DNA of 64,000 bases from Adineta ricciae (lineage: Eukaryota; Rotifera; Eurotatoria; Adinetida; Adinetidae), in the NCBI GenBank assembly GCA_905250025.1, contig CAJNOJ010000120.1, positions 124,001 to 188,000 on the forward strand, read 5' to 3'. Below, one piece after another: positions 29,782 through 45,427 of the stretch. A program made the position numbers and the translations under genes. The notes under the pieces are model-generated. The model did no database searches, was not told where the DNA came from, and saw only the letters and a list, made by a program, of their open reading frames with translations. How positions within the stretch are numbered: position 1 is the first letter of the stretch; each line of letters starts with the position of its first letter.

Positions 29782-30004
29782 TCTCATTTTTTTTTATACT
29801 TGGTGCTTATTTTTACCATATCGTTTTCTACCTTTCTATCCGACATCTACGTTTTGTTGTCTTTTATCGTGCAGATAAAATAGATTTTATTCTCTTTTTT
29901 TTTTCTACAAATCAGTCAGCCTAGTTTTTATTCATTTCAATTCTGTTTGTTTTCGATGATTCATTTATGACTTGAATGCATTGAATAGACATAAATGACT
30001 CGAA

Positions 30005-30075
30005 AAGCGAATCTCATCCGACTTATTCATCCAGAACTGGTTTCTGAACAAGTCATCATCGGACAGAACGAAATG
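30005..30075 (-). promoter_or_regulatory. Candidate SECIS element in the GPx 3' UTR
   Basis: On the minus strand, AUGAU (30059-30055) is followed by helix strand GACUUGUUCA (30054-30045). Then come an unpaired G plus AAA (30044-30041), a mini-helix CCA/UGG closing GUUC (30040-30031), one A, the partner strand UGAAUAAGUC (30029-30020) and GGAU (30019-30016). All ten helix pairs form, with one G-U. The UGAU/GGAU quartet gives U.U, G.A, A.G and U.G, fitting the UGAN/KGAW SECIS core. The AAA in an internal loop below a small apical helix fits a type II SECIS. Location about 500 nt after the UGA, just past the stop, is suitable. The lower stem pairs less well. Confidence 0.72.
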
Positions 30076-30106
30076 AATAAAAACAAATGCGCCTCTTTTT
30101 TTCTGT

Positions 30107-30921
30107 TTACTTGTCGAAATATTTTTTCATCTGGAGAAGTTTTTCAATAAATTGTCGAATGAATAGTGGTTCAGCATCACTATCAAATCTCATTATTGGA
30201 TGTCCATTGAAATCAATCAGAAACTTCTCAAAATTCCATCGAATATCATCGGAATGATGTGGTTCATAGAATATCGCCGTATGATCTTCGAAATCCTTTC
30301 TCGGCGATGGTATAGATAACTTGAGATATTCATACAAAGGGTGTTGTTTCTTTCCGTTGACATCAACAAGCCAAAAGAGAGGAAATTTCGGAATAAAATC
30401 ATTTCCAGGTCGCACATATTTTAAACCATTTAACAATTCAAGTTTGCTTTCAGCTGGTTCTTGATAACCGAATTGATTACATGGAATAGCGAGAATGGTA
30501 AATAGATTCGTTGAAGCAAACTCTTCTTGTAATGCATTCAATTGAAGATATTGAAATGTAACACGTCAGAATGTCGCAACATTCACAATTAAACATAATT
30601 GATTTCTATATTTTGATAAAGATTGTTTCTTCAAATCAAGATCTTCTAGCTCAAAATCATAGATCGTTCGAGTATGTAGACATGTACGACAACGTGCGAA
30701 TGGTATACGATTATTTTTGTCTTGAACTAGGGAGAAGAAAATACGATTGTTTGCCTTCGATCAGAAAGACATTTACAGTATTTCATATCAAGTGTAGCGG
30801 TTGAATAGTGTTTAAGAAGATCTATGATCATATCTCGTTGTTGATACTGACTTTTTTTTCGTTCGTTGTCGTCAGTTGATGAATCTTTGCCCTTGACCGC
30901 AGTGATAGGTAACATCGACAT
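30107..30921 (-). CDS. Glutathione peroxidase with in-frame UGA (probable selenoprotein)
   Basis: Minus-strand exons 30921-30777 and 30726-30107 sum to 765 nt (254 residues), in frame only if the TGA at 30568-30566 is read through. That codon sits at residue 102, exactly at the catalytic position, in LCLIVNVATF-UGA-RVTFQYLQL; family consensus is NVASYU/C.LT. The other catalytic residues are present: the NQFG..E loop (IPCNQFGYQEPAE) and WNFEKFLID near the C-terminus. Known role: reduction of hydroperoxides with glutathione or thioredoxin. A SECIS-like hairpin lies 40-100 nt past the stop. The N-terminus is about 60-70 residues longer than in most GPx, has no clear signal peptide, and carries a CRTC motif. 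The alternative is a pseudogene with a nonsense change, but otherwise intact coding and the hairpin argue against it. Confidence 0.9.
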
Positions 30922-44758: not shown

Positions 44759-45309
44759 ATTGCACTTTTGTTTGCACTAACTTTTCTTTTTGAATATATC
44801 ACTATTTTTCAAAAACTGCACCTTTCAATGCACTTTGCCATTTCATTGAACACACGCACTTTTGTATATCTGCACAAATATTACTTTTAATCTTGATTTT
44901 CGTACGAGATCAAATGATATGATTGATTATTCATGCTTTCTGAAGAATTAGGTCGACTAAAGTTTTCTTTATTTACAGATGAATGATCGTAGAATGACGA
45001 AAAGTACGGATTTTACTTCGTAACACTCATCGTATCCTCTCTCAAATGAACAACTCAACAAAGTTGACGCAGAAACTCATTCATACACAATGGACGGTGC
45101 TTTATCTAGAAAAACACATGTTTTATATTCGCTTTCATATTTTATTATTTGATGTCCTCAATAAATTATGGAAAATCAATGGGCTTCTGTTATCCGCTTT
45201 GACAAAAAGACATTTTTTCATGTATGACAACGAGATTGAATCTTTGGTTAGAGTTGGGTGAAGTAGTATTGTTGCCGTGAATTTCCATGTTTATATAAAA
45301 AGACAAAAA
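44759..45309. other. Intergenic, upstream side of the 5S locus
   Basis: About 550 bases. ORF 45046-45261 on plus has no recognisable motif and ends near the 5S terminator; I do not call it. TTTATATAAAAAGACAAAAA next to the 5S gene supplies its minus-strand T-run terminator. Confidence 0.4.
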
Positions 45310-45427
45310 GCTTACGACACTCGGTATTCCCAGGCGGTCACCCATCCAAGTACTAACCGAGCCCGACGTTGCTTAACTTCAGTGATCGGACGAGAACTGG
45401 TGTATTCAACGTGGTATGGCCGTAAGC
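45310..45427 (-). rRNA. 5S ribosomal RNA
   Basis: The reverse complement starts GCTTACGGCCATACCACGTT and ends ATACCGAGTGTCGTAAGC, 118 nt, with complementary termini forming helix I. The pol III internal promoter is intact: box A-like AAGTTAAGCAACGTCGGGC and box C-like TTAGTACTTGGATGGGTGAC. The sequence is of metazoan type. The 3' end is followed on the minus strand by TTTTTGTCTTTTT, an RNA polymerase III terminator. A single copy sits alone between protein genes, not in a visible tandem array. Its role is the structural RNA of the large ribosomal subunit. Confidence 0.97.

Follow-up and report, generated by a model that had tools for sequence, protein, structure and literature searches.

A glutathione peroxidase frame with one in-frame TGA and a SECIS-like hairpin: a probable selenocysteine gene

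Does the TGA that interrupts a glutathione peroxidase (GPx) frame end the protein there, or is it read as selenocysteine (Sec)? The question is raised by a locus in the stretch of DNA analysed here, 64 kb long and referred to below as the window. A sequence-only reading of the locus had taken it for a Sec-containing GPx; the observation behind that reading, an in-frame TGA together with a hairpin, is confirmed, and its interpretation is supported by our analysis. Judged from sequence, this is probably a genuine, working Sec GPx gene. Genes of this kind, Sec GPx with a SECIS element, have long been known, and that of the window is an ordinary member of them.

The glutathione peroxidase frame and its TGA

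The minus strand of the window (contig C120) carries a two-exon GPx frame, 30921-30777 joined to 30726-30107, which after splicing has 254 codons, a stop codon and exactly one internal stop, a TGA. The first exon (30777..30921) holds 48 codons and one base and lies wholly outside the GPx similarity, the PDB matches beginning at residue 62 at the earliest; its start was taken as the first ATG, 30921, a further upstream exon being possible. It is followed by an intron of 50 nt (30727..30776, GT..AG) and by the second exon (30107..30726), which carries the GPx domain, ends with TAA at 30109-30107 and, with the TGA read as U, brings the frame a PF00255 match of 109.1 bits against a cut-off of 27. 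The TGA (30566..30568, minus strand) occupies the peroxidatic Sec/Cys position, NVATF-U-RVTFQY, and aligns to the active-site Cys of 2i3y in the comparison with PDB sequences. This anatomy is seen directly. It had been claimed that the frame is broken by this TGA only, on the catalytic Cys/Sec position, and that the rest is intact with exons in frame; frame, TGA and splice sites are all as claimed.

The protein was compared with PDB sequences with C typed at the TGA. The highest scores, from 147.7 down to 114 bits, went to six chains of the classical kind (epididymal GPx, GPx3, GPx6, GPx2, 1gp1 and GPx1), followed by 2p5q (named GPx 5, 170 residues) with 85.8, designed GPx4-like proteins with at most 83.6, natural GPx4 with at most 82.5, and GPx7 and GPx8 with at most 66.4 bits. 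By score, the predicted protein is a classical GPx of the GPx1/2/3/5/6 type and not a GPx4, GPx7 or GPx8. The best matches, which cover roughly residues 67-238 with 147.7 to 134.6 bits, belong to the GPx3/5/6 group (2r37, a GPx3; 2i3y, the epididymal GPx; 7fc2, a GPx6), with which it has in common NVA, PCNQFG, LKYVRPG and DIRWNFEKFL. Unlike these three chains, which have Gly after the active-site residue, the window protein has Arg there, and its N-terminal 60-66 residues or so are without similarity to the group. GPx4, which we take to belong to the same Pfam family and to miss the KYVRPG stretch, resembles the window protein in the active-site region but scores much lower, its best natural chain reaching those 82.5 bits. 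When aligned by eye to 2i3y, the catalytic tetrad is found as U, Q in CNQFG, and W and N in IRWNFEKF, which we take to fill the Sec/Cys, Gln, Trp and Asn roles of glutathione peroxidases.

The hairpin behind the gene

Behind the frame, 506 nt past the TGA and 47 nt past the stop codon, lies the core of a SECIS-like hairpin (30016..30059, minus strand). It consists of an AUGAU quartet arm, a helix of ten pairs (nine Watson-Crick and one G-U), AAA, a CCAG/CUGG mini-helix and a GGAU quartet arm, so the SECIS layout that had been described for the minus-strand 3' region is indeed present at 30059-30016. Downstream of it there is an AATAAA, a possible polyadenylation signal (29927..29932, minus strand), and another at 29891-29886; the whole stretch presumably constitutes the 3' UTR of the GPx gene. 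The hairpin is of the AUGA_AA type, to which, according to the available text of a survey of invertebrates, almost all non-sponge invertebrate SECIS elements found belong (PMC3473315).

Against the Rfam model SECIS_1 (RF00031), positions 30069-30010 of the minus strand score 26.3 bits, with an E of 0.013 for 1.1 kb searched; the gathering cut-off of 35 is not reached. The alignment spans the model's full length, and AUGA, helix, AAA, apical mini-helix and GA quartet match in register; it is in the weak lower stem that the hairpin departs from the model. The minimum free energy fold of the region (-18.9 kcal/mol) pairs the quartet strands and is not the SECIS fold, the best fold with the quartet held unpaired having -12.7 kcal/mol. 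Nearest-neighbour energies ignore the non-Watson-Crick quartet, and therefore a different minimum free energy fold is neither proof nor refutation of the SECIS fold.

How often would such a hairpin occur by chance? After the hairpin was seen, a strict descriptor was composed that asks for ATGAN, a helix with 10 of 10 pairs, AA or CC, and NGAN. Run over the 64 kb, both strands included, it matched this hairpin and nothing else, the expectation from 60 Markov shuffles being 0.05; with 9 of 10 pairs there was still one match, against 0.8 expected. For any given 3' UTR of 300 nt the chance rate is about 1e-4 with 10 of 10 pairs and about 2e-3 with 9 of 10. A wider descriptor gave two matches on both strands of the window, the GPx hairpin (score 20) and a weaker one (score 14). 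In the whole genome as searched by us (130.46 Mb in 1033 contigs) about 102 chance matches to the strict descriptor are to be expected, so that the hairpin carries weight only in combination with the TGA.

A warning in the same direction comes from the genome-wide SECIS_1 search, which scored 133 of 2992 candidates and at E up to 10 returned five matches, including both GPx hairpins (that of the window and that of a second copy described below). The best two were on contigs C201, which with 36.4 bits was alone among the scored candidates in passing the Rfam cut-off, and C99, with 27.3; C694 (26.1) was also among the five. The C201 hairpin (C201:15675-15737, minus strand; L033) stands just behind a reverse transcriptase frame of 1130 codons, in which PF00078 matches with 114 bits and an endonuclease weakly; the frame ends with TAA and contains no in-frame TGA. 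The best SECIS_1 match thus stands behind the frame of a LINE-like element without any in-frame TGA, and therefore a hairpin alone proves nothing. The one on C99 (C99:35736-35798, minus strand; L034) follows the last 88 codons of a frame of this type, all that C99 keeps of it, 62.5% identical to those of C201. The layout of the LINE hairpin is AUGAU, helix, AAA, CUG..CAG and UGAU; between C201 and C99, which are 79% alike, one stem pair is changed on both sides and one is broken, as judged by eye. A DNA search found the LINE hairpin in four places, two of them short pieces of only 69 and 63 matching bases (C694:17809-17877 and C559:14148-14210). It is conceivable, if quite improbable, that this hairpin would be a real SBP2 ligand and that 3' ends of mobile elements could seed SECIS elements into 3' UTRs of genes.

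A second copy and selection behind the TGA

A second copy of the locus, on contig C82, matches the window collinearly along 9.5 kb, in two pieces that are 94.8% and 92.5% identical to it. It keeps the TGA, the splice sites and the frame, and its hairpin is the same in every letter; the exons of the two copies differ by one indel of 3 nt and the introns by 1 nt in length (51 nt in C82). Over 150 nt of the 3' UTR around the hairpin, a stretch picked post hoc, there is no difference at all between these loci that have diverged by 5%.

For the whole GPx frame the two copies give dS 0.136 and dN 0.017, a ratio of 0.124, and after the TGA the ratio is 0.076, with 12 synonymous and 4 non-synonymous changes. 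Among 5000 neutral simulations a single one had as few amino-acid changes, and 2406 contained a stop. The low dN/dS after the TGA shows that the stretch behind it is selected as protein. Second copy and purifying selection are seen directly, and the selection behind the TGA is, in our view, the strongest single result of this work.

A pseudogene, or a Cys GPx with a nonsense mutation next to a chance hairpin, would agree with the presence of an internal stop, with the Rfam score below cut-off and with the number of SECIS-like hairpins that the strict descriptor expects by chance in a genome. It is opposed by a frame that is kept in both copies with so low a dN/dS after the stop, by the position of this stop exactly on the catalytic codon and by a hairpin unchanged between the copies, and we hold it to be very improbable. 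The sequence-only reading had named frame-disrupting changes elsewhere as the sign of a pseudogene; in the comparison of two copies from one genome the C82 copy is without frame damage, and the low dN/dS speaks for a living gene. The TGA is known from the assembly alone and not from reads, and a sequence or assembly error might have made it from a Cys codon (TGT or TGC). However, the same TGA occurs in two contigs 5% apart and the SECIS would be left unexplained, which makes an error extremely improbable.

Selenocysteine machinery and other UGA-bearing genes

The claim that this animal keeps the Sec-insertion machinery is borne out by tRNA-Sec, SBP2, eEFSec, SepSecS and two SPS2 genes in the same genome. 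A tRNA-SeC(tca) is found in identical letters on C165 and C275 with 69.8 bits, over the cut-off, and four further matches are below it. SBP2 on C95 reaches 158.4 bits with the SBP2 chain of 7zjw, the runner-up having 29.5. For eEFSec on C76 the PDB comparison gives 156.5 bits, other kinds of protein following at 67.3 or less, and SepSecS on C11 has 285.8 bits. The SPS2 genes on C29 (L043/L046) and C10 (L045/L047), about 75% alike, both have TGA in KG-U-GCKVP. PSTK has a weak match on C130 (38.9 bits, below cut-off). Searches for tRNA-Sec, selB and selD also match all 14 prokaryote controls, over the cut-off in 5, 2 and 2 of them, so that these family matches alone are not specific. The tRNA-Sec call was therefore based on score and on the anticodon UCA given by ARAGORN, while eEFSec and SBP2 were called from their PDB scores and SPS2 from joined-exon scores over the cut-off together with the motif. 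C411 and C59, which gave the best selB-family matches, were rejected as eEFSec, since on inspection by eye they resemble mitochondrial EF-Tu and GUF1/LepA.

Besides these machinery genes, further TGA-bearing families are seen directly in the genome. SelW-like genes on C152 (L067) and C61 (L072) have CGA-U and SECIS-like hairpins behind both by the wider descriptor, and TGA in CxxU is found in another SelW-like gene on C90 (L069) and in SelT-like genes on C10 (L068) and C190 (L071); the SelW-like and SelT-like names were given by eye from translations and the Rdx family match. The TGAs of the SPS2, SelW-like and SelT-like genes sit at what we take to be the known Sec positions. All this shows that the animal retains an apparently complete Sec system, and several families of selenoproteins with it.

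The wider descriptor matched behind five of the nine UGA genes scanned (both GPx copies, SPS2 on C29, and SelW-like on C152 and C61). No descriptor match was found behind SelW-like on C90 and SelT-like on C10 and C190, whose 3' ends are possibly incompletely covered. Neither Rfam nor the first descriptor found a SECIS in the SPS2 3' ends; the SPS2 matches are post hoc, because the descriptor was widened after helices had been spotted there by eye, and the hairpin of SPS2 on C10 is SECIS-like by eye only. The helix closes with AAC/GTT in one SPS2 hairpin and with AGC/GCT in the other, a change on either side by which the pair is kept. Cys homologues (GPx on C194, C90 and C353, SelT-like on C48) have no SECIS-like hairpin by the wider descriptor in any of the four. 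The comparison of a SECIS predictor with Cys homologues, which had also been proposed, thus came out divided: the Cys homologues lack the hairpin, but Rfam SECIS_1 scores that of the window below its cut-off.

Selection after the TGA speaks only for translation and not for which residue goes in, and the UGA might be decoded by another route, being reassigned to Trp or Cys or simply read through. Against this stand a tRNA-SeC whose anticodon is UCA and factors specific to Sec, as well as the TGAs of SPS2, SelW-like and SelT-like genes at known Sec positions, the check being confined to those genes, and such decoding deserves very little credence. Decoding as Sec is the reading that we prefer. 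Bound to the SECIS hairpin behind the frame, in the 3' UTR, SBP2 would recruit eEFSec with Sec-tRNA(UCA), because of which the ribosome would decode the UGA at 30568-30566 as selenocysteine, and the product would be a classical glutathione peroxidase with Sec as the peroxidatic residue. Points against it are the Rfam score, the minimum free energy fold, the UGA genes without a descriptor match, the Arg in place of Gly after the active-site residue and the weakness of the PSTK match. It is nevertheless very likely that the locus is a functional selenoprotein gene of this sort; Sec insertion itself, expression and peroxidase activity we infer from the gene and its company.

The GPx, tRNA-Sec, SelW-like and SelT-like locus pairs are 5-10% apart and the SPS2 pair about 25%, which would fit the paired four-copy genome described for the rotifer Adineta vaga (PMC7730656) and suggests that the host may be a bdelloid rotifer. 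GPx04 is the only GPx subfamily that one survey reports for Rotifera (PMC8614756); if the host is a rotifer, a Sec-bearing classical GPx would add to the table of that survey and would survive in a group for which only GPx4 is listed there. The invertebrate SECIS survey mentioned above covered six invertebrates, and the word rotifer is absent from its available text (PMC3473315). Five GPx genes are given for Adineta vaga in a paper whose main text, as available, has no word beginning with 'selen' (PMC10809525). Among the literature matches listed, in titles and abstract openings, there was no description of this gene, of a rotifer selenoproteome or of a LINE-borne SECIS. Standard annotation may plausibly lose or cut the Sec GPx of the window in gene catalogues, and, should this animal prove to be a bdelloid rotifer, work on its antioxidant defence would do well to verify that Sec enzymes have been included.

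The pattern TGTGGG, which we take to be that of bdelloid telomeres, had 38 matches, and the reversed pattern used as control had 44. For the thioredoxin reductase family the genome gave 27 matches. GPx loci on C108 and C1 have a Cys-like translation, SECSYT. A further GPx, on C194 (C194:56770-57158, L041), looks classical and carries Cys (TATYCQYT) at the Sec site, and the descriptor picks up no SECIS-like hairpin behind it, so that, with its type judged by eye, Sec and Cys versions occur in one genome. The window also holds a 5S rRNA gene (45309-45427, minus strand, 115.8 bits), the sole entry in its gathering-level Rfam scan.
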